In this document: one piece after another, positions 25,782 through 44,865 of the stretch
How positions within the stretch are numbered: the first letter of the stretch is position 1
How the letters are laid out: each line of letters opens with the position of its first letter
Assembly (NCBI GenBank): GCA_009692845.1
Contig: SHYK01000002.1
Location: 310,001-374,000, forward strand
Reading direction: 5' to 3'
Origin: Chloroflexota bacterium
GTDB taxonomy: Bacteria > Chloroflexota > UBA6077 > SHYK01
DNA: 64,000 bases
Notes under the pieces: generated by a model
Told to the model about the DNA's origin: nothing
The model's input: the letters and a program-made list of their open reading frames with translations, nothing else
The model's database searches: none
Position numbers and translations under genes: made by a program

Positions 25782-26236
25782 TCACGAGCCAATGGTCCAG
25801 GCGAGGACGAGCACAAGGGGCAGCCCGGGCATGTGGAAGCTGTATCGCTCGACCGGAGGGCGCACCTGCGTTACCACGCCATCCCGACGAACCCGGGCGG
25901 ATGCGGAGCGAGGGAATAAAATCGGTCCTCTTCGTGGTTGGCGAACTGGTTGGCCAGGTCGAAATCGCGGTCCTCGGCGAGGCTGGCCGTGATCATTAGG
26001 TACGACGGCTGGTCTCCAGTTGGGGGTGAGGCGAACAGGACAAAATGAGGGATCGTCGCGACATATATAGCGCACGTTGCGGCAAAGACTACGATGGGGA
26101 CCCAGAGGCGGAGAGGGCGTGGCGGTTCCGCCTGCAGGCACAAAAACTCGGCCGCCCGCCTTCCGAGCCCGCCGAAAAATCTCGCCGCAACGAATAGTGG
26201 CCAGGCCATCCTACTCATCTGCGCCCAGGCTCCCAT
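25782..26236 (-). pseudogene. 5' part of the broken GT39-NHL gene (two frames)
   Basis: The first frame starts with an ATG overlapping the TGA of the YYY fusion gene and encodes a membrane helix, then GDQPSYLMITASLAEDRDFDLANQF, the usual loop of these proteins, and ends at a TAA near 25870. The protein pattern then continues in another frame as RDGVVTQVRPPVERYSFHMPGLPL until a TGA at 25782-25784. After that TGA the same frame carries on as VALWWPATIVAMCVLGAL into the next open portion. One base lost near the CCCGGG at about 25886-25891 would explain the first break. Confidence 0.7.
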
Positions 26237-29200
26237 CAACGCAACACCCGATAGATCGTGACTGCGCCAGCCTGATAGACGCGGTCCAGGCGCGATCCCA
26301 GCATCTGGTCGAACTTGGCGAGCCCAGACGGTGGGTAGAGAGCCTTTTCCTGACCACCCACGTACACGTATTCGACTCGGTACTTATCAAGCAGGGCCTG
26401 AACCTCGGCCGGCGATTCGGAACGGTAGATGGTTTCGACATCCCGGGTGCGGGTGTCCACCATGGCGGCGAAGTCGCCTCGCTGCTGCTTCTGGTGGAAA
26501 TCCCAGCCGCGCACGGTGGGGAGACCGGTGTAAATCGAGACCCGGGAGGTCCATCGATACAGATCTCCCAGGCCCTCGACGATAACCGGGGTCCCCTCAA
26601 TGTTGTCGAGCATCCAATTGATGGCGGGGAAATCGTCTTTCATCAACACGTCGGTGCCGTCGTGATTGGTGTAGCGGGAAACTTCCATGAAGGCCATGCC
26701 ATCCAGGCTCGGCGGGAGCGGCGTGAACCGCTGCTGGACCTTGGATGGGGTGGCCAGCAGCGGATAAAGCAAGGTTATCGCCAGGGTCGCGCTCAGGCCG
26801 ATGGCCCATACCGCGCGAGGTCCCCGCAGGAGCCAGGGAGAACGCCAGGCTCGGCGAGCCAGGAGGGTCAGGCCTACGGCGCTAGCGATCGAAAAGAGGA
26901 ACCAGGCCTGCAAGTAGAACTTGAACACGGTGTTCATACGCCCGGCCCCGCTAAGGACGATGAGGTCAACGCCCGCAGTAACGGCCAAGCCCGTGGCCAC
27001 GAGCAAGAATGCGAAGCGGGTCCCGATTGATGGATTCCCGAGGGTTGTGATAATCGCCAGGACGCCCACCCCCAAGACCGCTACTCCGCCGACCGGAAGA
27101 TCGGACGCGAGAAGTGCTAAGCCAGTGAAACTGGAAAGCGTACCCAAGACGACCCAAGCGGTCGAAGCCGGCGACCGCCACTGCATGGTCAGGTGGGAGG
27201 CGGTCGCGGAAAGGGGGGCGGCCCCGCTTCCCAGGGCTCCGACACCGAACAGGAGTCCCTGGGCCAGGCGTTCCCGCAGGGCCCACAGACGGAAGCCGGC
27301 ATAGAGGCCCAGGCAGGCCAGGAAAGCGCCCATGATGAGGGTGAAATCACCGAGCGGGGTGTGGGCGGTGGACCGTTCCACGCCCGAGTAGAAGAGCACG
27401 TTCTGCCGGATGTAGGGCGTCACCACGAGCTCGCTGATGAGCGCTACTGCCGCCGCCAGGCCTAGGCCGCGAGCGAAAACGGTTGGCCAGTGACGGGGTC
27501 GCCGCCTGGCTTCCGCCAGCAACAATGAGGCGGCGATGAGTCCCAGGTAGGTCGGATAGTCCCACGAGTTGGTCATCCGGATCACGCCGATCATGACCGC
27601 GCCGACGATGAGCGTGGCTCCGCCGGGACTCACTATGGCGCGGGCGATGGCGGTGAAGGCCGCCGGCGGCGATTTTCCGCTGAGGTTCGGAATCCAGTTG
27701 GGCTGACGGACCAGGTTGAGCGCCAGGGCAATCGCAAAGATACCGAGGGGCATTGCAATCATATGGGCATGGAGGTCGCCGTAGAGAAAGGTGAAATAAG
27801 GGAACTCGGTGATCTCGGATTCTCGGTTGATGATCCGGGTGGGAGCCCAGAAGTCGAAGCTCCAGGGCGGAAGGCCCTGGCCGAAGCTCATGATGAGGGC
27901 AACGGTCCCTCCGATGACCCGTAAGAAGCCGTCAACCGGTCCGATCGAAGTAGGCCCCGAGGCCGGCCCCAGGCTGGCCAGGCGCTGCAAAACCTGCAGG
28001 ATCCCCTGCAGGTTCCCGGCGGCGACCGCGAAGTAGGCGCCGAGCAGTCCACCCGCCCATGCCCACAGTTGCCGGGTGGGCGGCGCCCCCTGGCGATGAA
28101 CCAGGATGTTGAACACGACCGAGGCCACGCTGGTAGCGGTGAGCGCAGCAATAGTGGGGATGGCGAGGTTGTAGGCGACCCAGGGCAAAACGCCGGTCAG
28201 CTTGCTCAATGAACCGACGATCACGAATCCAAAGTAGTAGTAGTTGATGTAGCCGACGGCGAACCAGGGGTCGTAGGGCGGGAACCAGGTGGATTTCATG
28301 ACCGCGTTCAAGTAGGCGAAGTCCATGGGTTTTTCCCCGCCATAAGCTGAGTGCCAGAGGTCGGGGTTGGCGCTTCGGAGGGCGACGAAGCCTAGAAATG
28401 CCACGGCGAATAACGCCTCGGTCAGAACGATCGTGAGACGCTGGGAAGATAGATCGGCCCGGAAGTGCGCCCAATGCTTCGCGAGAACCAGGCTCGACAT
28501 GGCCGCCAGGAAGAGGGCAGCCAGGCCGATCGCCCCCTGCGTATATGGGATTATCCGCAGGCTGGCCAGCAGCCAGGGCAAATAGGCAATTGTCAATAGC
28601 GCCAGGGTTTTGGCCAACGCGTAGCCGCCGTCCGCGAGATGGCGGCACAAGAACCAGGTGAGCGGCAGGGCGAGCAACCCAAGGACCTCGAGAGTGAGAT
28701 ACCAGACCGGTAACGGCAAGCGATTCGCCAGCGACTCGCGATTGAACATATCCGACCACGTTCCGCCAGATTGGGTGGCTAGGCGTTCCGCTTCATCCAT
28801 AAGCAACCCACCGCTGGTGGCGAATTTTGGTCGGAGGCCCTGGACGACCTCGTTGAGCGAAACGGCCTCGAGCAACTGGCGGGCGGTCGTTGCGGAATAA
28901 GTGTCGGTCTTGTGGTAGATGTTCACTTTGGGGTGGTCGTAAACAGTGAAGCTCTCTTCGGAGTCGTCGTCGTTCAACTCCAGGCCGAACAGGCCGGGCC
29001 GGGAGGTGAATTCAGCGACCGACTCGAAGCCAAGCTCCCCCCCGAAAAGGGCCTGGTAGTAGCGAGTAGACACCGGATAGCGCTGGGGCAGCTTGGGGAT
29101 GGAGCCATAGAGCCGGTTGCTGGTTAGGACGATGTAGTCGGTTTGGTCGAGGTGGGTGAGCAGTTGATTCCGCTTTTCGGGAGTGTCGGGATCGTAGTTG

Positions 29201-30801
29201 TTGAACTCGACATATCGATACCGGTCCGGATTGTCGCCCGGCAGCCCAAGCGGCAACCGGTCGTCCCAGTGCTCGGTGCCCAGCGTCGCGCCGGCTGGGA
29301 CATTGGTATAGATCCAGGCCGACGCGGCCATCCGCGAGTGCGGCCTGGTGTAGATCGAACTAAAAGCCAGCGCGTAGAAGGCGGTCCAGCCGACGACGCC
29401 GACGACCAGGACTCGAGCAGCGATGCGCTGGTGTGACCGGCTCCATTGCCAGGCGGCGATGAGGAGGGCGGCTGCGAAGATCGTCAGGAAGGGATAAATG
29501 GGCAGCATGTAGCGCATGAGCTTGGTGAACTGGATGCCCCAGTAAGCGAAGTTCACCCCTATCCAGAGCAGCGGAAGGATGAGGAGGTGGTAGCGGCGGG
29601 GGTTGCCTATCGTTTGCAGTGCGGCCCAGGCGAAGCCCACCCAGGATGCGAGGGCCAATGCCGGGCCCATCCCCCACATGGTCATTTCACGCAGTTGCCA
29701 GACATAAGGGATTGCTCCTGCCCACGAGTCATTGAACGGCACGTCGGCGTCGCCAGTACCGATCCGCTGAAAGGCGCTAAACACCTCCATCCAGCGAGAA
29801 TCGGGACGGAGATCAAAAATGCCCGGCCCGGCGAATGTATAGGGCTGAGCCAGCCGGAATACGCTGAAGGCCAGGCCGCCGGCTACGAACAGGCCGGTCA
29901 GCAGATCTTCAGCCAGGAAGCGTCGACGCTCGTAGGCGTCCAGGCGGGCTGCGCGATACCAAAGCAGGGCCCCGGCGGTCAGGAAGATAGCTCCGAGCAT
30001 GAGAGCAGTGACCTTGCTCGCCGCGGCCAGGCCAGTTGCAAGCCCGAGCATTGACCAATCCAACAGCCGTCCAGATTGTGCCGCCCGGAGTCCAAAATAC
30101 ATGGCTATGGTGACAAGCAGAGTGAGCGACGTTTCGACGGTGAAGAAGTGGGAAGCCTGGATCTGCAGCACGGTCAGCGCGGCCAGGACCGCCGCGAGCA
30201 CAGCGACTTTGGGGTCATAAAGGCGACGGGCGATTAAGAAGATGAATACGATCGTCGCCAGGTCGTAGCCAGCTGAAAGGATGCGCCCAACTAAGTAGAT
30301 GCCATCGTATTGCCCCATGAGCCGAAGCTTTTCGAAAACCGGACCGGGCGCCATAGCGATGGCAATTCCCTGAATCGCGCCCCCGAGGAGCCTGGCGGCA
30401 TAGAGGGGGAGCGTGCCATAGACGTAGTTGGTGTTGGGGAGCCCATTGGGATTGAAGGGCGACTTCGTGGTGTCGAAGTACTGACTCAAAGCGGGAAGCT
30501 GGAGGGCGCTGGCGACCGAGGTGATGAACCGCTCATCGGGATGGAGGTGATGTCCAGAGTCCCAATCCAGACCGATCAGGCGAAGCCCGGCCGCCAAGAG
30601 GAGCGTCGCCACGAGAGCGGCCGCAGTCCAGGTTGGTCGAGGAGGGCGGATCGGGATGCGAAGCCGGCCGGGCCTAGGCACACGGCGCACCATGCCTCGG
30701 CCCCAGGAAAGGCCCTGGGCGGGCGGCTGCACCATCGGGTCACCGGGAGTAGGGATTTCGGGAGGAAGGCCGGCCTCGGCCAGGGGCAATTCGGCGGTCA
30801 T
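26236..30801 (-). CDS. GT39-like domain fused to Chlor_Arch_YYY membrane domain
   Basis: A 1521-residue polytopic protein. Residues 55-560 resemble PMT/GT39-type glycosyltransferases, with a first-loop HHLHPDERFI (Asp-Glu at 89-90, the usual catalytic-acid position). A soluble stretch (about 500-660) follows. Residues 690-1400 form a Chlor_Arch_YYY (DUF2298) domain: the defining YYYFG lies near residue 853, and RMNTVFKFY and EFPYFTFLYGDLHAHM are also present. A C-terminal soluble segment ends the protein. The start is uncertain: ATG at 30801 is used, TTG at 30855 is possible, and neither has a strong ribosome site. The family's function is unknown; sugar transfer is inferred. Confidence 0.85.
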   Translation of the reverse strand: MTAELPLAEAGLPPEIPTPGDPMVQPPAQGLSWGRGMVRRVPRPGRLRIPIRPPRPTWTAAALVATLLLAAGLRLIGLDWDSGHHLHPDERFITSVASALQLPALSQYFDTTKSPFNPNGLPNTNYVYGTLPLYAARLLGGAIQGIAIAMAPGPVFEKLRLMGQYDGIYLVGRILSAGYDLATIVFIFLIARRLYDPKVAVLAAVLAALTVLQIQASHFFTVETSLTLLVTIAMYFGLRAAQSGRLLDWSMLGLATGLAAASKVTALMLGAIFLTAGALLWYRAARLDAYERRRFLAEDLLTGLFVAGGLAFSVFRLAQPYTFAGPGIFDLRPDSRWMEVFSAFQRIGTGDADVPFNDSWAGAIPYVWQLREMTMWGMGPALALASWVGFAWAALQTIGNPRRYHLLILPLLWIGVNFAYWGIQFTKLMRYMLPIYPFLTIFAAALLIAAWQWSRSHQRIAARVLVVGVVGWTAFYALAFSSIYTRPHSRMAASAWIYTNVPAGATLGTEHWDDRLPLGLPGDNPDRYRYVEFNNYDPDTPEKRNQLLTHLDQTDYIVLTSNRLYGSIPKLPQRYPVSTRYYQALFGGELGFESVAEFTSRPGLFGLELNDDDSEESFTVYDHPKVNIYHKTDTYSATTARQLLEAVSLNEVVQGLRPKFATSGGLLMDEAERLATQSGGTWSDMFNRESLANRLPLPVWYLTLEVLGLLALPLTWFLCRHLADGGYALAKTLALLTIAYLPWLLASLRIIPYTQGAIGLAALFLAAMSSLVLAKHWAHFRADLSSQRLTIVLTEALFAVAFLGFVALRSANPDLWHSAYGGEKPMDFAYLNAVMKSTWFPPYDPWFAVGYINYYYFGFVIVGSLSKLTGVLPWVAYNLAIPTIAALTATSVASVVFNILVHRQGAPPTRQLWAWAGGLLGAYFAVAAGNLQGILQVLQRLASLGPASGPTSIGPVDGFLRVIGGTVALIMSFGQGLPPWSFDFWAPTRIINRESEITEFPYFTFLYGDLHAHMIAMPLGIFAIALALNLVRQPNWIPNLSGKSPPAAFTAIARAIVSPGGATLIVGAVMIGVIRMTNSWDYPTYLGLIAASLLLAEARRRPRHWPTVFARGLGLAAAVALISELVVTPYIRQNVLFYSGVERSTAHTPLGDFTLIMGAFLACLGLYAGFRLWALRERLAQGLLFGVGALGSGAAPLSATASHLTMQWRSPASTAWVVLGTLSSFTGLALLASDLPVGGVAVLGVGVLAIITTLGNPSIGTRFAFLLVATGLAVTAGVDLIVLSGAGRMNTVFKFYLQAWFLFSIASAVGLTLLARRAWRSPWLLRGPRAVWAIGLSATLAITLLYPLLATPSKVQQRFTPLPPSLDGMAFMEVSRYTNHDGTDVLMKDDFPAINWMLDNIEGTPVIVEGLGDLYRWTSRVSIYTGLPTVRGWDFHQKQQRGDFAAMVDTRTRDVETIYRSESPAEVQALLDKYRVEYVYVGGQEKALYPPSGLAKFDQMLGSRLDRVYQAGAVTIYRVLR

Positions 30802-31204
30802 GGATGTATTACGGAGCGGTGAAGCCCGGCGGATTCGGGCCCCGGCAGCTGGCAAAGGTCAAACTTGGATCGCACAAGCATGTGCTCCGCCTCCAAATTT
30901 CTGGACTTAGGGTTGAGGCTGGAGCCGCGACCCGGAGCGGCGAAATATGGGCGGGTGAACCAGGCCGAGCCGGGCGCCTCGATTGAGGAGGCTGGTGTAG
31001 CGAACCCCACGTCCGTACTGACAGGAGTGCCGGAGATTGATGGATGACGACTCAGGAGTATAGCGGGTGGGGCAAGAAACTTCGCCAACCCGAAAGCCTA
31101 AGAACAGGATCTGGGCCAGCTTTTGGTTGTCAAAAGACAAAGTCGTCCGAGTTCCACTTACCTTCGATCATGCTTGCCTTTCCAGGGTGCCTACGGCTCA
31201 GAGC
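30802..31204. other. Intergenic region, no gene seen
   Basis: About 400 bases between two genes on the minus strand. Only short, unsupported frames are present and no tRNA, hairpin terminator or clear promoter could be recognised. It probably carries the leader or promoter of the YYY fusion gene. Confidence 0.4.
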
Positions 31205-34200
31205 TCAGGGCAGAGCGATCAAGGAGATCACTCCAGTCTCGAAGTCCGCCACCACCAGGCCGATCTGCCCGGCCGCAATGCCGACCGGCTTGTGCCAATC
31301 GGGCGCGGGCTGCGAGGGCTGGGGTGATCCGCCGCCGGGACTCATCCGCAAGAGGCCGCGCTGTTCAGGGGCTGTCGCCACCCATCCGCCGTTGGGCAGA
31401 ACAGCGACGTGCGGGCCCTGGACGGTGGTCGACGCCGGCATCGGCCAACTGGCGCCCCGTTTCCCGTCCAGCCCTACGATCACCAGCTGGTTGGCGCCGG
31501 TTTCGGCGACCAGGAGGGTGCCGTCCGGGAGGAAAGCGGCATCGGTTGGCTCTTTGAGTCCGCCGATGGTTTGGGTGAGGCGCCCGTCCGCTCCCAGGAC
31601 GAGCAAGCGGTTACCTCCGGTGTCCGCAACCACCAGCCGGCCATCTTTGGCGGCGGCCATGCCCCGCGGACCGAATAGGCCTTCAGTCGGAATGAGGCGT
31701 TCGCCGCGTGTGCCATCCCGTCCCATGCGCTGGAGGGATCCCGTTTTTGCATCGAGCACGACGAGTCCTCCGTTGGGCAGTACCGCCACCGCGGTCGGCT
31801 CCTCAAATTGCCCATTGCCGAGCAAGTGGGTCGCTCCATCAGGATCGATGGCGACGATCGCGTGTTTTCCGGCATCCGCGACGAATACCGTTCCATCGGG
31901 CCCGATGGCGAGCCCCCGGGGCTCGGCCACGGCGCCCGGGGGGCCGAGCTTTCGGCCTCCTGAAGTCGGCGCTTGTCCCGTCGCGGTAGGCGCCCCGGGT
32001 TGGGGGGCGGGAGGTGGAATATCTGTGAAGATACTCTGCTCGGTCTGTTCCGGTTGAATCGAGGCTGGCCAGGCTCGGATAGCGTGGCTGGGGATGATTT
32101 CCTGGGCTTGCCCAGGGGGCGTCCAGTAGAGTTGGATATGGGTGTAATTCGTGGAATCAAGGAGGCGGACCCGCAGATCGTGCCACCCGGCACTCAGCTG
32201 TGTGCTCCCCTCGGCCACGCCCGTGGGATTGTTCACGATAGGCCGGCCGTCGATCCACACCGTGCTGGCGTCACGGGAGTCGGTGCTGAATCGGTACGAC
32301 CCCTCTCGCGTTGCGAGCAGCGAGCCGGTCCACTCGATCGTGTAGGGCCTCGGCCATGGCAACAAGTGGACGCGCAGATCGATCTCGGGATCGATCTGTT
32401 CCAGAGCAGGTAACCCCGAGGCAACATTGCCTGGGTAAAGGCGAGCCAATAGCCCAGTCGCCTGAATCGGGGGCGCCAGGAGCGCCGTGGGCGGGATCAA
32501 CTGGAGCTGACCGTTGGGTGGGGACCAATAGAGGCGGAGCGGAGTCTCGCCAACGGTCGGAGCGTCGATCTGGAGGGCATGGGCGCCTCGAGCCAGGACC
32601 AGAGTGGTTTCACGGCCTCCGGACAGTACGTTGGCGCCATTTATGTTCAACGTGACGTCGTCAGCCGCTTCTAGTGCGAAACGATAGCTTCCGGTTTCCG
32701 GCGCAGCGAGGGTGGACTGGATGTTCCCGGTCGCCAACGGGGGTGGGGTTCGAGTCAGCCAATCGAAATTGACCTGAGACGCTAGTTGATCCACGGACCC
32801 GGCTGCGGACGAATAATGGAGGAGAACTCCCTGGTGGGCCTGGAAGACCTCCGGTGGGATCAGCAGGGTGTTGAGCGCGACATCATTCCTGCCAGGGACT
32901 CGGAGCTGATTCCAGGTGAGTTCCGGGTAAAGGCTCGCCAGGTACTTGGCGGCGGAAGCTTCTCGGTCGGTTAAGAATAGCGCGGTCCCTTGTCTGGGGA
33001 GCAAGGTGGATTGGAACGCGGTGAAAGTCGGGAACTCCCGGGGGTTTTGGAGCATGAACTTAAGCGATGGATCGCCGTTGAGCACCGGATCCACGTAGAC
33101 GGCCCAGCCAGCCGGGACCTCGTTAATCTCACGTCCAGCGGTGGTCTCAGCGACGAATGACTCGGTCCAGGTTCGCGGGTCGCGCTCCTGATAGTTGAAA
33201 TAACGGTTGAGATTATTGAGTCCCGTCCCGATGAGGCCCAGCGAGACCAGACCGGTCACGAGGGTGGATGGCCTGACTGCGGCCCGTAGGAGGGGTGAAA
33301 TCTCGAGCTGAGATCGCACGAACGACAGATGCCACCAGCGGAGCCGCCCCGCCGCGTTCAAGAGGGTGCTAACCGGCAGCGCCGCAAGTAACACGAGCGG
33401 GGTGAGCGCATCGATGGAGCGATTGGCTTGGGGAGCCTCCCCGCTGATGGCGAATATCCCGCTCGCCATTGCGACTGGCAGCCAGAGCACCGGCAGTGCG
33501 TAGTCCGAGCGGCGCGATCGACTGATGGCTAGGAAGAGACCGAGGATCGCGAGCGCTCCGGTGACTTCGTCCAGCATCGGCCGGCCGGACCAATTGTGGC
33601 GGCCATTGTTGTCGCCGCGAACGTTGAACATCAGCAAATGAGCGCGGGCACTCTCGACCAGGGGCGCCCAGCTCTGATCGTGCAGGACCTCATTGAGGAC
33701 ACTCACGGTTCCCAGCCGCCGCGTGAACTCGCTCGGGTGAAGCGCCGCAAATTGGGCCAGTGGCGCGGCAGCCAAGGCGAAGCCCGCAGCGGCGAGGAGC
33801 AAGCCGGCGGCATGGACTCGGAGAAACGCGCCTCGGCCACTCACGATGCGGTGGGTGAGAAACAGCACGAGCACGAGCGGGAAGAGCCAGCTGCTGTAAT
33901 AGAAGTGGAGGGCTAACCCGGCCGCGAGCCCGGCTGCGCCTAGGGCAAGTGCGCTTCGTCGACGGAGGCCGACAACAAGTAGGCCTGCCGCCAGCGCATC
34001 GAGGCCTACCGAGTACATATCTGGGAATGCCAGCCGACTGAAGGTGAGATGCCAAGTCAAGGCAGCGGTGATGGCACCTGCAACAAGGGCGGTTCGACGG
34101 TCGAAGAGAATCCTGGCGAGGAGGTAGAGGGCGCCAACCCCCAGGCAGCCGGCTAGCACCGAGGGAAGACGAAGGGCCAGAGGCGTCGGCCCAAACAGCC

Positions 34201-35119
34201 CGATGAAAGGGACGATAAGGTACCAGAACGCTGTTGGCTCCTGGGTCCGTACAGGAACGAACACTGGTCGGTAGCCGGGGTCAGCGGTAATGTGAAGGGC
34301 TTCAATGCCTCGCTGGGCCTCGTCTGAGAAAATGCCCGGAGGAAGATCGGCCAGCTGCCACAGGCGAGCAGCGAATGCGATCACGATAAGTAGGGCAACC
34401 GAGGCCAGCTCCCACCGTGGACAATCGCGCATCAGTTGTCGGAATCCGACTCTCGAGAGCTGGCTCAGCCCCTGTACAAATAGGGTGGCTGCCCCCAGAT
34501 GCAGGAGCCATCCCCACCCGCCTAGTGCTCCGATTGGGAAGCAGACCAGCGCGAGACCTTCAGCGGCGGCGGCGGCCACGAGTAACTGGCCCGCCCGCTT
34601 TCGGGAATGGAGATCACTTCGCCAATAGCGGCCGGGGCTCTCCTGCCGGTCGGCCGGTGAATCGAGCGTGAGACCGGGCCTCCTCTCGAAACCCGGTAGA
34701 GACTCAACGAGCCACCGCCCAACGATCGTGGCGAAGCCGATCCCGGTCGCGAGCAAGAGCCAAAAGGGGGTCAGGTCGGTCTGGTTCTGCCAGAGCTGGC
34801 GTTGGAGAAGTACCGCGCACATCAGTAGACCAGCGGCAACGATCCAAGCCCGCGCAAAGGACCGGGGGGGAGGACTCGACTCGGCCAGTGTGGCCGTCGG
34901 GACATCCCACGCGGTTTCGTCATCGCTTTCGACCTGGGCTAGCTCGAGACTGCTCGGCCTCCGGGCTCTGGCCAGCCCCTCAGTGACGAGCTTGAGCACC
35001 ATCTGGGGGACCCCCAGGCCTGGGCCGGTCCAGATGCCTGAGAAGCCGTAGTGGCGCAGTCGGACCACGACAAAGGTCGCCACGGCGGTCAGGGCCAACA
35101 GAGCAACGAGGTCGATCAA
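31205..35119 (-). CDS. GT39-like membrane protein with PA14-like and NHL domains
   Basis: A 1304-residue protein with three parts. Residues 1-650 are polytopic; after a first set of helices, a GT39/PMT-like core begins near 250 with LPPGIFSDEAQRGIEAL (Asp-Glu after the first core helix) and SRLAFPDMYSVGLDAL. Residues 790-1030 hold two PA14-like beta domains, each ending in an LYW(S/T)PP motif (LRLYWSPPNGQ and IQLYWTPPGQAQ), a fold known for carbohydrate binding. Residues 1050-1304 are an NHL-type propeller (PRGLAIGPDGTVFVADAG and similar repeats). This suggests an enzyme with extracytoplasmic glycan-binding modules. It may head the minus-strand glycan arm. Confidence 0.82.
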   Translation of the reverse strand: MIDLVALLALTAVATFVVVRLRHYGFSGIWTGPGLGVPQMVLKLVTEGLARARRPSSLELAQVESDDETAWDVPTATLAESSPPPRSFARAWIVAAGLLMCAVLLQRQLWQNQTDLTPFWLLLATGIGFATIVGRWLVESLPGFERRPGLTLDSPADRQESPGRYWRSDLHSRKRAGQLLVAAAAAEGLALVCFPIGALGGWGWLLHLGAATLFVQGLSQLSRVGFRQLMRDCPRWELASVALLIVIAFAARLWQLADLPPGIFSDEAQRGIEALHITADPGYRPVFVPVRTQEPTAFWYLIVPFIGLFGPTPLALRLPSVLAGCLGVGALYLLARILFDRRTALVAGAITAALTWHLTFSRLAFPDMYSVGLDALAAGLLVVGLRRRSALALGAAGLAAGLALHFYYSSWLFPLVLVLFLTHRIVSGRGAFLRVHAAGLLLAAAGFALAAAPLAQFAALHPSEFTRRLGTVSVLNEVLHDQSWAPLVESARAHLLMFNVRGDNNGRHNWSGRPMLDEVTGALAILGLFLAISRSRRSDYALPVLWLPVAMASGIFAISGEAPQANRSIDALTPLVLLAALPVSTLLNAAGRLRWWHLSFVRSQLEISPLLRAAVRPSTLVTGLVSLGLIGTGLNNLNRYFNYQERDPRTWTESFVAETTAGREINEVPAGWAVYVDPVLNGDPSLKFMLQNPREFPTFTAFQSTLLPRQGTALFLTDREASAAKYLASLYPELTWNQLRVPGRNDVALNTLLIPPEVFQAHQGVLLHYSSAAGSVDQLASQVNFDWLTRTPPPLATGNIQSTLAAPETGSYRFALEAADDVTLNINGANVLSGGRETTLVLARGAHALQIDAPTVGETPLRLYWSPPNGQLQLIPPTALLAPPIQATGLLARLYPGNVASGLPALEQIDPEIDLRVHLLPWPRPYTIEWTGSLLATREGSYRFSTDSRDASTVWIDGRPIVNNPTGVAEGSTQLSAGWHDLRVRLLDSTNYTHIQLYWTPPGQAQEIIPSHAIRAWPASIQPEQTEQSIFTDIPPPAPQPGAPTATGQAPTSGGRKLGPPGAVAEPRGLAIGPDGTVFVADAGKHAIVAIDPDGATHLLGNGQFEEPTAVAVLPNGGLVVLDAKTGSLQRMGRDGTRGERLIPTEGLFGPRGMAAAKDGRLVVADTGGNRLLVLGADGRLTQTIGGLKEPTDAAFLPDGTLLVAETGANQLVIVGLDGKRGASWPMPASTTVQGPHVAVLPNGGWVATAPEQRGLLRMSPGGGSPQPSQPAPDWHKPVGIAAGQIGLVVADFETGVISLIALP

Positions 35120-36635: not shown

Positions 36636-39044
36636 TTGGGGTTTGACGTCCTGCGTTGGCTGGTTGGGATCGAGTTGATCGGCTTTGCGGCCTGGCCGTT
36701 GGCCGCTCGGCTCTTTGCTGTCTGGCCGGACCGGGGCTATGCCTGGGCGAAGATCTTGGGCCTCTTAATCGTGGGGTACCTGGTCTGGCTGGGGTCCATG
36801 CTTGGGGTGGCGGGGTTCACTGGGCCCACGCTGATGGTCGTGGCGGGAGCCCTGGCCCTAGTCGGTTGGAGTACCGGTCCCCGCCCTACCTCCGGGGTGT
36901 CCAGGCGACTAGTCGCACTCGAAGAGGGACTGTTCCTGGCTACCTTTGTAGCCGCGGTCGCGGTGCGGTCCTTCAGCCCAGCGGCGGACGGGCAGGAAAA
37001 AGCGATGGATTTCAACTTCCTCCATTCGCTGATCCAAGCAGACCATCTGCCCGCCGCAGACCACTGGCTGGCCGGCTACGGGCTTCCTTATTACTATTTC
37101 GGCTACCTGATTCAGTCCATAGTCCCGAAGCTGGCCGCGATTGACGCGTCGGTGGCCTACAACCTGGCTCTGGCGAGCATCCCCGCCCTGGCGGCGATGG
37201 GAGCCTTTGGTCTGGTAGTCAATCAGTTGATAGGCCCGCCCAGCGGCACGACCGTCAGCTCGGCGGCCGGTGTACCCCGGGCGACGGCAGCGGAGCGGGG
37301 GCGGCCCGCCACTGGCCAGGGAGGTGGGCGGCCCGGCGGAATCGCCGAGTTCCCGACCGATCCCGCGGACGCCACTTGGCGGCAGCTGGCCGGTCCGGCC
37401 GCCTGGGGCCTATTGGGGGCACTTGGCTTGACGGTGCTCGGTAACCTGGAAGCGCTGATTGAAGTTCTGGCCGGCCGAGGATTCGGTTCCCTCGGATTCT
37501 GGACCGCGCTGGGGGTCAAGAATTTGACCCCCAATCTGAGCGGAGGATGGTTCCCAACCGATGGTAATTGGTGGTTCCATGCGGCTCGGGTGATCCCGAA
37601 TATCGAGCCGGACGGGATCACCGAATTCCCCTACTTCAGTTTCCTGCTCGGCGACCTTCATCCCCATTTCATGACGCTTCCGCTGTTCGGGCTGATCGGG
37701 GCGCTGGCCATAGTCCCGCTCTATAAGGGACTCGCTGCGTCGAAGGATGCGGTTGGAGGTGGGGACGGCTCTCGGACCCTCGCCATCCAAATCGGTGCTC
37801 AGGCCGTAGTGTTGGGAGCGGTCATCCCGACCAACACCTGGGATGTGCCCACTCTTTGGGGAGTCTTCGCGGCTGGCACGATAGGAGGTGGGTTGGTGCA
37901 GCTCGGGCGGTCCTGGCCATTGGTGGGTCAGGGGCTGAGACGGGTTGGGTTGATCCTCGGTTTGGCTGTCGCCCTGTACCTTCCGTATCTTGTCGGCTAC
38001 CAGTCACCGCCCCTCGGCCTGAGTCTCGTAGTGGGGGAACGGACGCCGCTCGGATCGCTGATGATCCTGTTTGGAGTGCTCCTGGTTCTTCCGGTTATCG
38101 CGGGACTAGTCGAGCTCAGTCGTTCCGACGGCGCCCTTTCGGGCCGCATCCGGTTTGTGGCCATAGGGGGGATCGCCCTGGGCGGGCTGCTCAGTTTGGG
38201 TGGGCAGCCGACTTTGGGGGTCTTGTTCGCCTTACTCATACTCTGGGCGCTGGTACTCGGGGGCCGGTTGAGCCGGGCTAGGTCGGCCCTCAGCATTGCG
38301 GCGGCGGCGTTCGCCCTGGCCGGTTTGGCGGCGATCCTGTTGCCGGAGCTTATCTTCTTGCGAGACTCCTTCGGCACCCGCATGAACACCGTCTTCAAGT
38401 TCTACTACGACGGGTGGGTGCTCCTCGCCCTGGCTGCTCCCCTGCTCGGATGGGAGCTGTGGAGTATGACCGGGCGAGATGGCTGGCCCAGCCGAGTGGT
38501 GGGGGTGGCCGGGCTCGCTGCCTGCGGGCTGTTGGCTTTGGCCGGGCTCCTTTACCCATTGGGGGCAACCCCGGTTCGAACGAATGCCTTTCTCTCCGGG
38601 CCCACCCTGGATGGCATGGTGCATTTGCGGGTCTTTCGTCCGGATGACGCTGCGGCAATCGACTGGCTGCAGCGGCTACATCCGGGTGTGCGGGTGGCGG
38701 AGGCGATTGGAGACGATTATTCGGACGCCGGCCGCTTCGCAACCTTCGGTGGGGCCATTGCCCCGCTGGGTTGGATTGGGCACGAGCTGCAGTGGCGCGG
38801 CCAGATCCCCGATCTGGTCGAGCGTCAGACCTTGGTCCGGCAGCTTTACACCGCCCCCACGGAAGAGGGCTGGCGAGCAGCGCTAAAGGCATTGCACCTG
38901 GAATTTGTGGCGGTGGGGACTTTGGAACGTGAGATCTATGGTCCAGGGGTCAGCTTCCAGTTTGAGGGGGCACTCCAGCCCGCTTACCAGTCCGGCGCGA
39001 CCGTACTCTATCGAGCGGGGAGCGACGAGCGTGCGGCCTCGTGA
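36636..39044 (+). CDS. Chlor_Arch_YYY (DUF2298) membrane protein
   Basis: An 802-residue, almost wholly hydrophobic protein of the single-domain YYY class. The defining YYYFG occurs at about residue 151 (GLPYYYFGYLIQ), with EFPYFSFLLGDLHPHFM near 330 and GTRMNTVFKFYYDGWV near 580. The same landmarks occur in the YYY half of the gene at 26236-30801, so the two are paralogues. The TTG at 36636 follows a GGGGGAAGG site. It heads the plus-strand glycan arm. The family's activity is unknown; GT-C-like sugar transfer or transport is an inference. Confidence 0.87.
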   Translation: MGFDVLRWLVGIELIGFAAWPLAARLFAVWPDRGYAWAKILGLLIVGYLVWLGSMLGVAGFTGPTLMVVAGALALVGWSTGPRPTSGVSRRLVALEEGLFLATFVAAVAVRSFSPAADGQEKAMDFNFLHSLIQADHLPAADHWLAGYGLPYYYFGYLIQSIVPKLAAIDASVAYNLALASIPALAAMGAFGLVVNQLIGPPSGTTVSSAAGVPRATAAERGRPATGQGGGRPGGIAEFPTDPADATWRQLAGPAAWGLLGALGLTVLGNLEALIEVLAGRGFGSLGFWTALGVKNLTPNLSGGWFPTDGNWWFHAARVIPNIEPDGITEFPYFSFLLGDLHPHFMTLPLFGLIGALAIVPLYKGLAASKDAVGGGDGSRTLAIQIGAQAVVLGAVIPTNTWDVPTLWGVFAAGTIGGGLVQLGRSWPLVGQGLRRVGLILGLAVALYLPYLVGYQSPPLGLSLVVGERTPLGSLMILFGVLLVLPVIAGLVELSRSDGALSGRIRFVAIGGIALGGLLSLGGQPTLGVLFALLILWALVLGGRLSRARSALSIAAAAFALAGLAAILLPELIFLRDSFGTRMNTVFKFYYDGWVLLALAAPLLGWELWSMTGRDGWPSRVVGVAGLAACGLLALAGLLYPLGATPVRTNAFLSGPTLDGMVHLRVFRPDDAAAIDWLQRLHPGVRVAEAIGDDYSDAGRFATFGGAIAPLGWIGHELQWRGQIPDLVERQTLVRQLYTAPTEEGWRAALKALHLEFVAVGTLEREIYGPGVSFQFEGALQPAYQSGATVLYRAGSDERAAS

Positions 39045-39140: not shown

Positions 39141-40838
39141 ATGACCTCCGCCCAACCGGACCTGGAGAGTGGGCTGAGTGCGTGGCTGCGGGCCCACCTC
39201 TGGCTGGCGTCCTGGGTGGGGGTTGGCCTGCTAGCCGGGCTGCTCCGGGTCGGGTGGCTTGACACTCTTCCCCTAGACAGCGAGGAAGCCAGACTTGCCC
39301 TGGCCGCCTGGCACGCCAGCCTAGGCGAAGGGCTGACCGGTATGCTGCCCACCGACGGACGGGTCCTGCCGAATCTGATGACCTTCATCGTCTGGCTGTT
39401 TGGGGCGAGCGATGCGTCCTCCCGACTGGTCCCGGCCCTGGCGGGAACCGCTACTGCACTGATGCCCGCGCTGATCCAGGGCTGGCTGGGGCCGCGGGTA
39501 GCACTGGCTACTGGGATTATTTTGGCCATTTCGCCAGTTGGGATCGAGACGTCGCGGGAGGTCAATCCGGTTGCCGTCAACGTCGGCCTCGTTCTTTTTT
39601 TTGCGGTATGCGCAGTGCGGATGGCGACCGATCGCCCGAGCTGGGCGACCTGGGGATTGGCAGGGTCGCTGGGGCTCGGGGTGGCCAGCGGCCCCGGCTT
39701 TGTCCTGGGCCTGCTGAGCCTTGGAGTGGCACTCTTCGCGCTGGGGAATGAGGTGAATCGGTTGCTCCCTCAACTGAGTCAGGGTTTGCGTCAGGTGGCG
39801 AAAGCGCCGGGCCCGGCGCTTTTCGGTATCGGGGTCGGATTCCTCACCACGACCGGGGGCCTTATGGATCTGGGGGGCGTCGGCTACTTACTCGGCGGAG
39901 TGTGGGGAGCCATGCCGGGGCTGATGAAGCCGTCGGCTCCTTCAGTTCGCAATGCGCTTGGGTTGACTGGATATGTCGGGCCGCTCATCGTCGTAGGTCT
40001 GGCTGGGCTGGGCTGGGGCATTCGACAAAGAGACCGCACCGTTTACTTCGGGGCCGGGTGGGCGGGCCTGCTACTGGTGCTTCACCTGACTACGCCGGAG
40101 GGTTCTCCCCTGTTCCTGGCATTGCTCACCCTTCCACTCGCTTGGCTGGCCGGCTCATTGATCGCCGGTCTGCCGTTTAAGCTGGCGGACCTCCATCTCT
40201 CCGGAGCTGGCTGGTGGGCCCTGGTGGCCTCGGGTGCAGTCGTCGCGGTGGGGCTGGCGATCATTACCGATTCAGTCGGCGCCGCGCGGGCCGCTTCGGT
40301 GCCAAAGCTGATCCTGACGGTTGGGGTCGTCATAGTCGCTGGATGGGGCTGGCGCCAGGCGTGGTCGTCCCGTTGGGTCGTGGCAACGCTCCTCGGTGGC
40401 GCACTGTTCGCGCTGGGCACCTTCGGGACGATAGGACGGTTGAGCTTCGGGGGCAGTCCGCCGGGCAGTGAGCCATTCCGGACGGAACAGACCGACAGTG
40501 AGTTCCGGGCGGCCTTCCCAAAGCTGGTGATCCTGGCTGATCCAGGTGTGCTCCTGTCGGTGAATACGGAGCCGCGCACCGCAGGCAAATGGTACGGTCG
40601 AAGCTTGAAGCTGGCCCCGGACGGCGTCAATCCGGGCGCGAATGGTATCGTTATACGGACCGCCACCGGATCGATTGGATCGGGCCCCTCCCTGGAACGG
40701 GGCACCCGCCTGCCCTGGCGCATCCAATCACAGATCGTCGTTGAGGACCTGAATCCATTAGGTATTCTGAGGTGGTTGATCACTCGTCATGGGCTCGTCG
40801 TCGGCCGCTTCGACGATGTGAGTCTGCTTCGATCTTAA
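39141..40838 (+). CDS. GT39-like multi-pass membrane protein
   Basis: A 565-residue protein with about a dozen membrane helices and a small C-terminal soluble domain. The loop after the first helix reads LPLDSEEARLALAAWHASLG, resembling the acidic first loop of GT39/ArnT-like transferases, and SRLVPALAGTATALMPALI is the typical second helix region. The C-terminal part (KWYGRSLKLAPDGVNPGANG) has no recognised domain. It lies between the YYY and Agl23 genes, 9 bases before the latter, so they are almost certainly co-expressed. Precise function unknown. Confidence 0.65.
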   Translation: MTSAQPDLESGLSAWLRAHLWLASWVGVGLLAGLLRVGWLDTLPLDSEEARLALAAWHASLGEGLTGMLPTDGRVLPNLMTFIVWLFGASDASSRLVPALAGTATALMPALIQGWLGPRVALATGIILAISPVGIETSREVNPVAVNVGLVLFFAVCAVRMATDRPSWATWGLAGSLGLGVASGPGFVLGLLSLGVALFALGNEVNRLLPQLSQGLRQVAKAPGPALFGIGVGFLTTTGGLMDLGGVGYLLGGVWGAMPGLMKPSAPSVRNALGLTGYVGPLIVVGLAGLGWGIRQRDRTVYFGAGWAGLLLVLHLTTPEGSPLFLALLTLPLAWLAGSLIAGLPFKLADLHLSGAGWWALVASGAVVAVGLAIITDSVGAARAASVPKLILTVGVVIVAGWGWRQAWSSRWVVATLLGGALFALGTFGTIGRLSFGGSPPGSEPFRTEQTDSEFRAAFPKLVILADPGVLLSVNTEPRTAGKWYGRSLKLAPDGVNPGANGIVIRTATGSIGSGPSLERGTRLPWRIQSQIVVEDLNPLGILRWLITRHGLVVGRFDDVSLLRS

Positions 40839-40847: not shown

Positions 40848-43757
40848 ATGGTCCAGCTTGCTGAGCGGGTTCAGGAGTCAGAAGAGCCCGCGGTTGCGCC
40901 CCTCGAATCGGTGGCTCCCCCCGAGGTCGGCCCCAGTTGGTGGTGGGTGTTCTTCGTTGGGCTCACGCTGTTGGCTCTGGTGCTGCGGCTCTATGACCTC
41001 GGCGCCCGGGCAATGCACCATGACGAGAGCCTGCATGCGCTTTATTCCTGGTCCCTGTACGTCGGGCGGGGGTACGTCCACGACCCCATGATGCACGGAC
41101 CGGGCCTGTTCGAGGGGACGGCCCTCATGTACTTCCTGTTTGGCGACAGCGAGGTCACCGCGCGGCTGATCATGGCCTTGATGGGGACGGGGATCGTCGT
41201 TCTTCCGTATTTTCTGCGGCACGAGCTGGGGCGATTCGGTGCAGTCGCCGCGGCGGCTTTCCTCGCCCTCGAGCCGTCCTTCGTGTACTTCTCGCGCTTC
41301 GCGCGCCACGATGCGATGGTCGTTTTCGAGGCCATGCTCCTGGTGGTGGGTATGTTCGGGTGGTTTCGGACCCGCAACTCGGCGTACTTCTACACGGCGG
41401 TAGTCGGGCTGGCGCTGTTGTTCTCCACCAAAGAGGACTCCTTTATCTACGGGTTTATCTTTGCTACTTTCCTAGTCGGGGCCACGATTGTGGACCGACG
41501 GCGGGGGTCGGGCCGGCTGCTGGAGGGCCTGGCGGAGATCGGGATCCGCCGCTGGATGGTGGCGGCGGCGATCTTTTTCGGCATCTCGGCGGTCCTCTAC
41601 ACGAGCTTCTTCACGAACCTCGAAGGCCTCTGCACGGCCATCTGGTCGCCGCCGGTGGGGAGCTGCACGGGCAAGCAGGGTGCGCTCCAGTACTGGCTGT
41701 CCCAACAGGGAGTCGCGCGAGGCTCCCAACCCTGGTTCTATTACTTCCTGCTGATTCCGCTTTACGAGATTCTTCCGCTGACCCTGGCTTTAGTGAGTCC
41801 GTTCATCGCGCGGCGCCCTAGGAGTCTCATCTTCTGGTTTTCGGCCTGGTGGGCGATCACGGCCATCGTCATCTACACCTGGGCCGGCGAGAAGATGCCC
41901 TGGCTCGTGGTGCATCCGGTCCTTCCACTCATCCTCCTGGCTAGCCTATCAGTGGACCGCATCGCCGGTTGGCTCCGGCTCCCCTGGGGTCTGACGGCTC
42001 GCCAGTGGTCGGTGGCCGGTCTCAGTCTGCTGGGCGGAGCGGCCGTTATCGCCTTGGCGGGACTGGGCGGATTGCCCACAGACGCATTGGAATCGCAAAC
42101 CAATACGCTCCGACGGATCGCCTTGGTGGTTGTGGTGGTAGGTATCGCAGCCGGCACCGCGCGAGCTGGCTGGCCGCTTGGCCGAACCCGAGTGCTGGGC
42201 GCACTGGGGGTGGCCGGCCTGGTGGTTCTTCTCCTGTATACCGTGCGCGCGGGCTGGCAGGTGAACTACAAGAATGGGGACACCCCGGTGGAGACGCTGG
42301 TGTACGTGCAGAGCTCGCCGGACGTTCCCTATGTCTTGTCGGAACTGGATCGGTTGGGCAACCAGCTCGGAATGCACAAGGATCTTCCCATACTGCTCGA
42401 TGGCGGTTATACCGACACCGTGGCTGGCCAGAGCGTGGATCATGAGGCCATTTCTTGGCCCTTCGAATGGTACCTGAGGGACTTCAAGGCCAAGCAGTAC
42501 TACAGTCGGAATTTCCCGTCCGATTTCTCCACCAACAAGTACGCAGCGGTGCTAGTCATGGGCCCCAGCCTGGACCCGGTCCGAGATGACCTGGGTGGCT
42601 ATACCGGGAATAAGTTGAAGCTCAACTGGTGGTATCCGGAAGACTACAAGCAGCTCACCTGGTCGACGCTTTTCGATGGGCTGCTGGATCCGGGCGTCCG
42701 CACGAAGCTGTGGAAGTACATCGTCTATCGGGATCTGGTGAATCCGCCGCTGGGCGCCCGCGAATTCTATTTCTACGTGCGTAATGATCTCGTGGGCACC
42801 CAAGCTGGCTCGGCGCCCTCTGCCGCGAGCCCGTCCGCGCCGAGATCGGCCCCCCAGACCGAGACGGTGGCCGTGCGCAACGTCACCGCTTTTGGACGAC
42901 CGAACGGAATCGCTGCTCTCCGCGATCCCAAGAGCTTTGCCCTGGCCCCGGACGGGCGAATCTTCGTTGTCGATGGAGCCAACGCGAACGTGACCGTCTT
43001 CACCCGGGATGGATCGGTCGAGCGAAGCTGGGGCCGAGCGGGTACAGGCGATGGGGAGTTCACCGAGCCCTGGGGCATCGCCCTCGGTCCGGATGGGTCG
43101 ATCTACGTGGCCGATACCTGGAACCACCGGGTTCAGAAATTCGACTCTCAGGGACGGTTCGTCACTAAGTGGGGCAATTTTGGCGACGCGCAGGGGCAGA
43201 TCAAGAACCTGCCGGGGAGCTTCTTCGGTCCCCGGGATCTGGTTTTCAACCAGCAAGGGGAGCTGTTGGTGACGGACACTGGCAACAAACGCATCCAGGC
43301 CTTTGACCAGGACGGCCATTTCCTTCGGGCCTATGGCGGCGAAGGGCGGGCGGTTGGACAGCTGCGTGAACCGACCGGCATCGCCGTGGATTCGGGTGGT
43401 CGGATCTATGTGGCGGATACGTGGAACCAGCGCATCCAGGTATTTTCGGCGCAGTTTGATCCGATTGCCCAATACCCGGTCCCTCAATGGACGAGCCAGT
43501 CAGCGCTGCACAAACCCTACCTTGCCGTGAGCCCGTCCGGGGATATCTACGCGACGATTCCCGAGCGGGGAACGCTGCTGCACGTGCATGACGGGGCGGT
43601 GACAACGTTGACGCTCCAGGGAGCGCCCCCGTTGGGATTGCCGCTTGGGATCAAGGTGAACCTGGACGGCAATCTGCTGGTGAGCGACGCACAAGGCGCC
43701 AGCGTGCTGCGGTATGAGCTCCCGTCCCCAGATCTACCGAGCGAGCAGCCCGAATGA
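40848..43757 (+). CDS. TIGR03663/Agl23-type membrane protein with NHL propeller
   Basis: A 969-residue protein. The membrane half (about 30-470) shows the invariant features described for TIGR03663: the Asp-Glu dipeptide at residues 59-60 (MHHDESLHALYSW) and the His-Gly-Pro tripeptide at 83-85 (MMHGPGLFEG). A mixed domain (about 470-660) leads into an NHL propeller of about six blades (680-960), with repeats such as PWGIALGPDGSIYVADTWNH and PTGIAVDSGGRIYVADTWNQ. This family tends to co-occur with YYY proteins, as here. The ATG has GGAG upstream. Activity unproven; a lipid-linked-sugar transferase is plausible. Confidence 0.88.
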   Translation: MVQLAERVQESEEPAVAPLESVAPPEVGPSWWWVFFVGLTLLALVLRLYDLGARAMHHDESLHALYSWSLYVGRGYVHDPMMHGPGLFEGTALMYFLFGDSEVTARLIMALMGTGIVVLPYFLRHELGRFGAVAAAAFLALEPSFVYFSRFARHDAMVVFEAMLLVVGMFGWFRTRNSAYFYTAVVGLALLFSTKEDSFIYGFIFATFLVGATIVDRRRGSGRLLEGLAEIGIRRWMVAAAIFFGISAVLYTSFFTNLEGLCTAIWSPPVGSCTGKQGALQYWLSQQGVARGSQPWFYYFLLIPLYEILPLTLALVSPFIARRPRSLIFWFSAWWAITAIVIYTWAGEKMPWLVVHPVLPLILLASLSVDRIAGWLRLPWGLTARQWSVAGLSLLGGAAVIALAGLGGLPTDALESQTNTLRRIALVVVVVGIAAGTARAGWPLGRTRVLGALGVAGLVVLLLYTVRAGWQVNYKNGDTPVETLVYVQSSPDVPYVLSELDRLGNQLGMHKDLPILLDGGYTDTVAGQSVDHEAISWPFEWYLRDFKAKQYYSRNFPSDFSTNKYAAVLVMGPSLDPVRDDLGGYTGNKLKLNWWYPEDYKQLTWSTLFDGLLDPGVRTKLWKYIVYRDLVNPPLGAREFYFYVRNDLVGTQAGSAPSAASPSAPRSAPQTETVAVRNVTAFGRPNGIAALRDPKSFALAPDGRIFVVDGANANVTVFTRDGSVERSWGRAGTGDGEFTEPWGIALGPDGSIYVADTWNHRVQKFDSQGRFVTKWGNFGDAQGQIKNLPGSFFGPRDLVFNQQGELLVTDTGNKRIQAFDQDGHFLRAYGGEGRAVGQLREPTGIAVDSGGRIYVADTWNQRIQVFSAQFDPIAQYPVPQWTSQSALHKPYLAVSPSGDIYATIPERGTLLHVHDGAVTTLTLQGAPPLGLPLGIKVNLDGNLLVSDAQGASVLRYELPSPDLPSEQPE

Positions 43758-43788: not shown

Positions 43789-44865
43789 GTGAGGAGATTT
43801 CCATTCCTTCGCCTGGGCCTCGGCCTGGCCATCAGCGTCGCTGCGATCGTGCTGATCGCCCGAACCGTATCTGCCAACGACGTACTGGAGAGTGTCCGGG
43901 CGGGTAATCCGCTGCTGCTGATTCCAGCCGTGGCCCTCTACTTCGTGGGACTCGGAGCTCGGAGTCTGCGCTGGCGGGTGCTGCTGGTTAATCAGCCAGT
44001 CGGGCTCGTCCTCTTGTTTCGAACTCTTGTGATTGGCTTCACGGTCAATGACATCCTGCCCGCCCGAATTGGGGAGCTGGCGAGGATCGTGCTGCTGGCC
44101 CGGAAAGCGAGCATCCCATCCGGAATCTCTTTTGCATCGATCATCGCTGAGCGAGTGCTCGATGGCCTGGTGGTCACAGCTTTCTTGATTGTCGGGCTGA
44201 TCCGGGTCCCTGGCGATGAGGGGCTACGGCTGGTGGCCCGCTTCGCGACAGTGGTCTTCGTCGCCCTGACCCTCGGGATCGTGGCTGCTGCGCTGGCGCC
44301 GGACCCCTTTCGGAGGGTGGGCCTGGCTCTGGCCCGACTCGCCCCCGGGCACTGGACGGAGCGGCTAACCCGATTGGTGCACTTCACCCTGGAAGGCCTG
44401 GCCGCGCTGACCGCCTGGCGGACGGCTGGCCTGGCGCTCGGGCTCTCAATCCTGGTGTGGACCATCGAGGCCACCACCTATCGGATCATTATGTTGGGCT
44501 TTCCCGTCCCGGGTGGAATGACTGCGGCAGTTATGGGGACCGGGGTGGCCAACCTGGCTACTCTGGTGCCATCCTCACCTGGCTATGTCGGAACCTTCGA
44601 CGCTGCGCTTCAGTCGACGCTAGTCGGCGCGTTCCAGGCGGTGCCTTCAGAGGCACTCGCCTTTACGGTTGTGGTCCATCTGGCGGTGCTGGTGCCCGTG
44701 GTGATCCTGGGACTCGTGTACATTTGGCAGGAAGGGTTCACCCTCGGGGGGTTGAGCCGAGTATCGTCGCAACCTCGCCCTGAGGCGTCTCGGGACGTTG
44801 ACGAAGTGGAAGTCGACGCGCGGATCCGGGTCGGGGCAGGCAAACGAGGTCGAAATAGACGCTAA
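43789..44865 (+). CDS. UPF0104/AglD-like (lysylphosphatidylglycerol synthase TM) protein
   Basis: A 358-residue membrane protein with about eight helices and the UPF0104 pattern: LGARSLRWRVLL at the end of the second helix, FTVNDILPARIGELARIVLLARK, the ERVLDGLVV segment and VPSSPGYVGTFDAAL. Relatives include archaeal AglD parts and the MprF flippase-like half. A role in moving or handling lipid-linked sugars is inferred from the cluster. The GTG start has only a weak ribosome site. It sits 31 bases after Agl23 and 33 before ugd. Confidence 0.82.
   Translation: MRRFPFLRLGLGLAISVAAIVLIARTVSANDVLESVRAGNPLLLIPAVALYFVGLGARSLRWRVLLVNQPVGLVLLFRTLVIGFTVNDILPARIGELARIVLLARKASIPSGISFASIIAERVLDGLVVTAFLIVGLIRVPGDEGLRLVARFATVVFVALTLGIVAAALAPDPFRRVGLALARLAPGHWTERLTRLVHFTLEGLAALTAWRTAGLALGLSILVWTIEATTYRIIMLGFPVPGGMTAAVMGTGVANLATLVPSSPGYVGTFDAALQSTLVGAFQAVPSEALAFTVVVHLAVLVPVVILGLVYIWQEGFTLGGLSRVSSQPRPEASRDVDEVEVDARIRVGAGKRGRNRR

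Follow-up and report, generated by a model that had tools for sequence, protein, structure and literature searches.

Some membrane glycosyltransferases (GTs) of the GT-C type carry a binding module behind their membrane part. In the mycobacterial arabinosyltransferase EmbC, conserved tryptophan residues of the C-terminal module bind the acceptor (excerpt of PMC3044687), and other GT-C enzymes are also described with C-terminal carbohydrate-binding modules (CBMs) (excerpt of PMC11127046). In ArnT, residues D55/E56 and D158 are active-site residues and substrate contacts (excerpt of PMC7801869). The archaeal Agl23 protein of Haloarcula hispanica translocates M5GN2-PP-Dol in proteoliposomes and is described as a flippase (excerpt of PMC11182771), and the main text of PMC8993221 does not mention Agl23. 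We found no description of a GT-C enzyme bearing an NHL propeller in the open-access literature, subscription papers being outside that search. Here, we describe such a protein, P0001, encoded at positions 40848 to 43757 of a 64,000-nucleotide stretch of a Chloroflexota bacterium genome (contig SHYK01000002.1 of assembly GCA_009692845.1, positions 310,001 to 374,000), which we refer to as the window; the genome assembly is 1.88 Mb in size and 89% complete. In our judgment the chances are about even that P0001 is an active, propeller-bearing transferase that is paired with a degenerate partner, encoded just upstream, and modifies surface glycans. The two genes and the parts of P0001 are as follows (positions in the window).

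39141-40838, plus strand: propeller-less paralogue of 565 amino acids (aa), the likely degenerate partner, with the signature EEVPEG instead of DEDEEK
40848-43757, plus strand: P0001, intact open reading frame (ORF) of 969 aa, an Agl23-type GT-C protein with a C-terminal NHL propeller
40944-42272, plus strand: GT-C membrane part of P0001, residues 33 to 475, with 13 transmembrane (TM) segments (from the model and the ArnT match)
42306-42797, plus strand: predicted extracytoplasmic alpha/beta domain of P0001, residues 487 to 650, with the conserved motifs WPFEWYLRD and WW.PEDY
42855-43718, plus strand: six-bladed NHL propeller of P0001, residues 670 to 957 (from the domain match and the model)

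P0001 belongs to two curated families: TIGR03663 (Agl23) matched residues 36 to 550 with 269.1 bits (cut-off, 126.25), and the NHL repeat (PF01436) matched with 129.3 bits (cut-off, 20). The Agl23 model ends at residue 550, however, and both the propeller and the pairing lie outside it. The AlphaFold2 model of P0001, built from 56 alignment rows (predicted local distance difference test [pLDDT] score, 89.3; predicted template-modelling score, 0.76), contains helices for 13 TM segments, the alpha/beta domain at residues 487 to 650, and six blades at residues 670 to 957, the last comprising 23 blade strands and an N-terminal closing strand. ArnT (5f15) superposes on residues 30 to 651 (Z score, 30.1; root mean square deviation, 3.6 over 435 residues; 14% identity), and P0001 thereby shows the ArnT-type GT-C fold, seen in 5f15/5ezm, of 13 TM segments followed by an extracytoplasmic alpha/beta domain. 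Since the match runs to the end of ArnT and stops where the propeller starts, P0001 can be described as an ArnT-like chain with a propeller behind the extracytoplasmic domain of ArnT. The likeness is a structural one, as a phmmer search of the membrane part against the PDB sequences returned nothing significant. NHL domains superpose on residues 672 to 956 with Z scores of up to 38.2, and a viral fold search returned generic propellers only.

As in ArnT, P0001 has an acidic pair in extracytoplasmic loop 1 (EL1; D59/E60) and an acidic residue in EL2 (D155), which we equated with ArnT D55/E56 and D158 by position and motif; E196 is placed in EL3, and an E348-K349 motif follows. Residues H57, H58, D59, and E60 are present in 56/56 rows of the P0001 alignment, as are E348 and K349, and D155 is present in 54/56 rows, with E in the other two. 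These residues also bear on the possibility that P0001 is a lipid-linked sugar flippase like archaeal Agl23, with the propeller capping or gating its outer side. The name of TIGR03663, flippase activity-associated protein Agl23, and the translocation by the H. hispanica protein speak for a flippase, but an ArnT fold and catalytic acidic residues kept in all 56 rows would be needless for a pure flippase. Moreover, a flippase-like LPG_synthase_TM protein is already encoded within three genes downstream of the propeller gene in 20/53 loci, some of them shortened by contig ends. We therefore consider a flippase role quite unlikely.

The fraction of K plus R was 0.158 in the inside loops and 0.076 in the outside loops of the 13-TM model, whose segments were set manually with an eye to the GT-C pattern (a plain hydropathy pass gave 12 segments). 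The K plus R density of the inside loops exceeded that of the outside loops in 56/56 rows, and the net charge did so in 52/56. On the basis of these loop charge counts and of the similarity to ArnT, whose C-terminal domain is periplasmic, the propeller of P0001 is predicted to lie outside the cell. The original prediction, made from the DNA letters, had described an extracellular-type propeller behind a polytopic part, and both the 13-TM model and the ArnT superposition put the propeller on that side and not in the cytoplasm.

We define the catalytic signature as sites 59, 60, 155, 196, 348, and 349, which read D, E, D, E, E, and K in P0001. The upstream paralogue scored 40.7 bits against TIGR03663, below the cut-off of 126.25, and is therefore Agl23-like only. 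Of the changes in its signature, EEVPEG, only the first (D to E) counts as conservative, and the paralogue thus shows the loss of catalytic residues that marks GT-C pseudoenzymes. The arrangement of the two genes recurs among relatives, which we collected in the class of the window genome, across the phylum, and as named relatives of P0001; some genomes recur in more than one of these sets, whose counts should therefore not be summed, except for 18 further named pairs that are new by sequence. Among adjacent Agl23-like pairs, the propeller-less copy precedes the propeller copy in 18/18 class pairs and 16/18 phylum pairs (34/36), and the other two phylum pairs have a propeller on neither copy. 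The complete six-site signature was found in 0/20 class partners and 8/14 phylum partners; the corresponding values for the paired propeller copies were 18/20 and 14/14. In the 18 further named pairs, 4 partners were intact and 14 were altered, and the propeller copies were intact throughout (18/18). The two exceptional class propeller copies read DEEVEK, with E for D155 and V for E196. They come from relatives of the same family (L062:10691-13606 and L064:2156-5071) and may represent early decay or a changed substrate.

The signature was intact in each of eight propeller-less Agl23 proteins that have no propeller copy downstream. In a GT tree, the 15 rows that make up the degenerate branch all come from the position upstream of a propeller copy, and D59 and E348 are both present in every remaining propeller-less row (21/21). 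This tree was a quick one with SH-aLRT support only, ORFs with fewer than 430 aligned residues were left out, and the branches leading to the degenerate partners are long and may attract each other. The presence of the propeller needs eight changes on the tree, so that the order of propeller gain and loss cannot be read from it. Judged from these sequences, and within loci chosen around good Agl23 matches, catalytic decay is seen only beside a propeller-bearing copy. The class partners have nevertheless remained ORFs of 482 to 742 aa (20/20, the one of 482 aa lying at a contig end), and they keep E60 in 19/20 cases, with one gap, which suggests that they retain a role; for class and phylum partners together, E60 is kept in 33/34, with one gap.

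The propeller and the rest of P0001 appear to be inherited together. Propeller distances correlate with those of the alpha/beta domain (r = 0.733) and with those of the membrane part (r = 0.429), and 0/1000 permutations reached either value. Because shared descent alone yields such a correlation, it points to joint inheritance and not to contact. The propeller (mean majority fraction per column, 0.562) and the membrane part (0.537) are about equally conserved. The two faces were told apart by the order of the strands, following the usual geometry of propellers, and not by coordinates. On this assignment, positions other than Gly or Pro with at least 90% identity made up 9/71 of the top-face loops and 0/31 of the bottom-face loops. 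Near-invariance at W758, R796, E841, and W881 distinguishes the Agl23 propellers from the standalone set. By analogy, the P0001 type resembles known GT-C enzymes with an extracytoplasmic binding module such as EmbC: both are GT-C membrane proteins with a C-terminal accessory domain, extracytoplasmic in EmbC and predicted to be so in P0001, and near-invariant tryptophan residues occur in the P0001 propeller. However, EmbC has a lectin-like CBM, whereas P0001 has no such module and instead has a six-bladed NHL propeller, the predicted binder, which may still work alike, together with the adjoining degenerate paralogue.

The propeller of P0001 shares the six-bladed NHL fold of TRIM71, Thin, Brat, and the extracellular domain of PknD (Z scores, 29 to 38). 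Those propellers sit on RING/B-box type proteins or on a kinase and not on a GT-C enzyme, and the NHL domains of TRIM71 and Brat are interaction platforms. Both are among the sequence and fold relatives of the P0001 propeller in the PDB, in line with a propeller that does not read glycans but serves on the outer side of the membrane as a protein-docking scaffold, keeping together a polymerising complex, the degenerate partner, or the DUF2298 protein. The propeller gene also lies in a conserved run with a DUF2298 gene and the paralogue, and the restriction of degenerate partners to the vicinity of propeller-bearing copies would fit docking too. On the other hand, propeller copies occur without such an upstream ORF (20/54 loci, some at contig ends), and tandem pairs without any propeller exist as well (2/18 phylum pairs). 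A docking scaffold is thus a serious but rather unlikely alternative. PknD is itself a strong match to the propeller in sequence (E value, 3.2e-32) and fold (Z score, 29.5), and the propeller could sense the state of the envelope and regulate the transferase, a role that the propeller of mycobacterial PknD may have for its kinase; the link of the propeller to GT-C proteins, though, and the lack of a signalling domain in the fusions that were read make such a sensor very unlikely. Hardly credible, finally, is a propeller that is itself an enzyme of the lyase or lactonase type. P0001 matches SGL above the cut-off (33.5 bits; cut-off, 26.3) and has a subthreshold similarity to Vgb_lyase (26.9 bits; cut-off, 50), but such cross-matches are usual among propellers.

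Two further loci of the window were part of the original prediction, which saw a membrane glycosyltransferase-like part combined with a propeller three times. Their features, and those of the genes next to the tandem pair and to these loci, are as follows.

23660-26239, minus strand: broken GT-C and NHL gene, interrupted by frame changes and by a TGA (25784-25782), with the pieces 26239-25871, 25748-24435, and 24547-23660
26236-30855, minus strand: P0003, a fusion of PMT_2 and DUF2298, the longest polytopic neighbour and a homologue of the conserved PMT-YYY neighbour
31205-35119, minus strand: P0002, 1304 aa, PMT_2 with two PA14 stretches and NHL (TTG start as listed mechanically)
32078-32719, minus strand: PA14 region of P0002, residues about 801 to 1014 (PA14 matches)
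31211-31990, minus strand: NHL propeller of P0002, residues about 1044 to 1303 (NHL match)
36636-39044, plus strand: TIGR03662/DUF2298 membrane protein, a conserved upstream neighbour (family match)
43789-44865, plus strand: LPG_synthase_TM/TIGR00374 flippase-like protein, a frequent downstream neighbour (family match)

The plus-strand readings of 31205-35119 and 23660-26236 were rejected, as their translations are riddled with stops; the minus strand has an uninterrupted frame of 1304 aa at the former locus and holds the pieces of the latter. P0002 has separate matches to PMT_2 (50.1 bits) and, in two stretches, to PA14 (PF07691; 65.1 bits; cut-off, 24), and it also belongs to the NHL family (66 bits; cut-off, 20). 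The order of a polytopic part before a propeller had been recognised correctly there, but the two PA14 stretches in between had been overlooked. The structure model of P0002 (pLDDT score, 70.9, from six rows) was too weak for a fold search. The combination of PMT and PA14 has already been seen by annotators, in a hypothetical "PMT2/PA14" protein beside DUF2298 in Chloroflexi bacterium 44-23 (appendix table of PMC8756737), a neighbourhood type like that of P0002; the passage that lists it, however, mentions no propeller and gives no analysis.

At the third locus, the middle piece (24435-25748) is polytopic without a family match, and the propeller piece (23660-24547; NHL, 37.4 bits) overlaps it in another frame. 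The first piece and the propeller piece share a frame, and the TGA interrupts that of the middle piece. Because an intact homologue of 635 aa (L248) aligns to the first piece with residues 51 to 118 and to the middle piece with residues 152 to 389, the polytopic part represents one broken gene, and a two-protein system was rejected for the same reason. The supposed pair of a propeller and a transferase at 23660-26236 is a broken minus-strand gene. Homologues of its polytopic part (P0004) were found in 4/29 class genomes, its own included, and no propeller was found on those in L247 to L251. A family 2 glycosyltransferase fused to Methyltransf_12 (22188-23558, minus strand) adjoins this gene. 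Of the three occurrences, the one at 40848-43757 is thus confirmed, the one at 31205-35119 is real but lies on the minus strand, and the third is the broken gene. A chance association is unlikely, as two of the three loci hold PMT_2 or Agl23 together with NHL above curated cut-offs in a single ORF. All NHL matches in the whole genome at an E value of ≤0.001 (n = 5) lie inside P0001 and P0002. A profile of the window propellers found these two places strongly in the same genome, in addition to the broken gene (E value, 4.1e-8), one weak standalone protein (E value, 4.7e-5, in two pieces), and three matches above an E value of 0.05.

In an unrooted tree of 71 propellers, 45 GT-fused propellers (28 Agl23, 13 PMT-PA14, and 4 other GT-C) were split from 26 standalone ones by one branch (support, 99/99), and the PMT-PA14 and other GT-C propellers formed a subgroup (16 rows; 99/97). 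The standalone propellers had been collected with the GT-propeller profile, which favours separation by similarity, and four long-branch propellers (L271, P0005, L126, and the standalone one of L262) were left out. When three of them were restored (all but L271), the 26 standalone rows remained separate (89/96), and P0005, the broken window copy, and the L262 lipoprotein grouped with the GT-fused rows. A third tree, also unrooted, with L268, L258, and L260 added and the duplicate row L288 dropped, kept 26/27 standalone rows apart (100/98); the L268 lipoprotein fell inside the PMT-PA14 group, so that not every member of the propeller group is fused to a GT. L271 had been placed among the Agl23 propellers in the first propeller tree, which was likewise unrooted, on a branch of 5.3. 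These trees make a single origin of the GT-linked propellers likely, the few standalone proteins in their group being derivatives or donors. The original prediction had proposed the propeller as a functional module, perhaps a scaffold or glycan reader, common to different transferases, and is partly supported: the GT-fused group indeed spans Agl23-type, PMT-PA14-type, and other GT-C proteins. As for a common origin, the GT-fused propellers form one group, but two standalone lipoproteins fall inside it when added, and NHL propellers are common in other contexts; outside the Agl23 neighbourhoods, the class genomes also have them as standalone or other proteins. These two lipoprotein-like proteins (L262:2625-3587, which directly precedes a GT-C-NHL gene, and L268:2131-3180) are possibly split-off propellers.

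Within the class, 28/29 genomes had a match above the TIGR03663 cut-off, and the Agl23 copy carries a propeller in 27/29 (26/26 fetched neighbourhoods and the window); of the remaining two, G010 has a contig-edge fragment and G009 no match above the cut-off. In the phylum, 248/400 genomes were above this cut-off. Forty phylum neighbourhoods, picked by family and not at random, included 39 with an Agl23 ORF of at least 500 aa, 27 of them with a propeller copy and 12 without. Propeller ORFs in the Agl23 neighbourhoods are fused to a GT-C part in 32/32 class cases and 28/28 phylum cases, and in 65/66 cases of the named set, the exception being a contig-edge piece of 171 aa. The named relatives (73 loci) are labelled Chloroflexi, Chloroflexota, or classes of that phylum, bar five, which by deposited label are three metagenome-assembled genomes of Proteobacteria, one of Peregrinibacteria, and one "Bacterium HR29."

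A gene for a DUF2298/TIGR03662 (YYY) protein lies within three genes upstream of the propeller gene in 34/53 loci, and an Agl23-like ORF lies immediately upstream in 28/53. DUF2298 is little mentioned in the open-access literature searched. P0003, in which the domain search found no propeller match, and the protein encoded at 36636-39044 correspond to the PMT-YYY and YYY neighbour set that recurs around the Agl23-NHL gene in relatives. Further class fusions of GT-C with NHL were found in L252, L259, L262, L263, L265, L266, and L267; four of these (L252:2692-5082, L259:1310-3493, L262:3610-6000, and L265:3717-5999) are distinct from Agl23 and have no PA14 match. Two standalone NHL propellers (L254:1452-3533 and L256:700-1776, the latter with a cysteine-rich N terminus) lie behind a single TM segment with a cytoplasmic-looking N terminus and resemble sensor proteins.

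Several observations weigh against an active transferase that depends on its propeller and its partner, in addition to the H. hispanica translocation and the propeller loci without an upstream ORF. (i) The upstream copies that are intact among the phylum (8/14) and named (4/18) partners mean that a dead partner is not universal, and the choice of loci would let lone degenerate copies elsewhere escape. (ii) Propeller-less Agl23 proteins with intact catalytic sites occur, which makes the propeller dispensable for the core reaction; two genomes with such propeller-less Agl23 (G079 and G171) had no NHL match at an E value of ≤1e-15. (iii) The top-face excess is modest (0.566 for Agl23 versus 0.504 for standalone propellers), it is not seen in the PMT-PA14 propellers (0.456), and the NHL motif in general accounts for several of the conserved top-face residues.

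For the paired transferase, we propose that P0001 would be an ArnT-type GT-C glycosyltransferase acting on the membrane's outer face with a polyprenyl-phosphate-linked sugar as donor, and that its propeller would project outside the cell on the side of the active site. With its top face, the propeller may bind a glycan or glycoprotein of the cell surface as the acceptor, or else a partner presenting that acceptor, much as the EmbC module holds arabinan. P0001 would work as a pair with the product of 39141-40838, which, with most of its catalytic residues lost, may be a structural or regulatory subunit, and the same propeller lineage also occurs on other GT-C proteins such as the PMT-PA14-NHL protein at 31205-35119. 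A bolder form of this reading, to which we give somewhat less than an even chance, is that of a two-subunit GT-C machine across much of Chloroflexota. In it, the propeller copy would have taken over both catalysis and acceptor capture, the partner, kept only beside the propeller copy, would have become an obligatory structural or allosteric subunit, and the propeller lineage would also have moved onto other GT-C proteins.

To our knowledge, surface glycosylation in Chloroflexota has been little studied. The widespread cluster of a GT-C protein with a propeller predicted to lie outside the cell and a degenerate paralogue poses the question of which acceptor the propeller holds, and it allows one to ask whether a twin without catalytic activity can persist as a subunit of a membrane glycosyltransferase. 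With the active copy next to the degenerate one, the question of whether bacterial "Agl23" proteins are transferases or flippases could also be addressed here.

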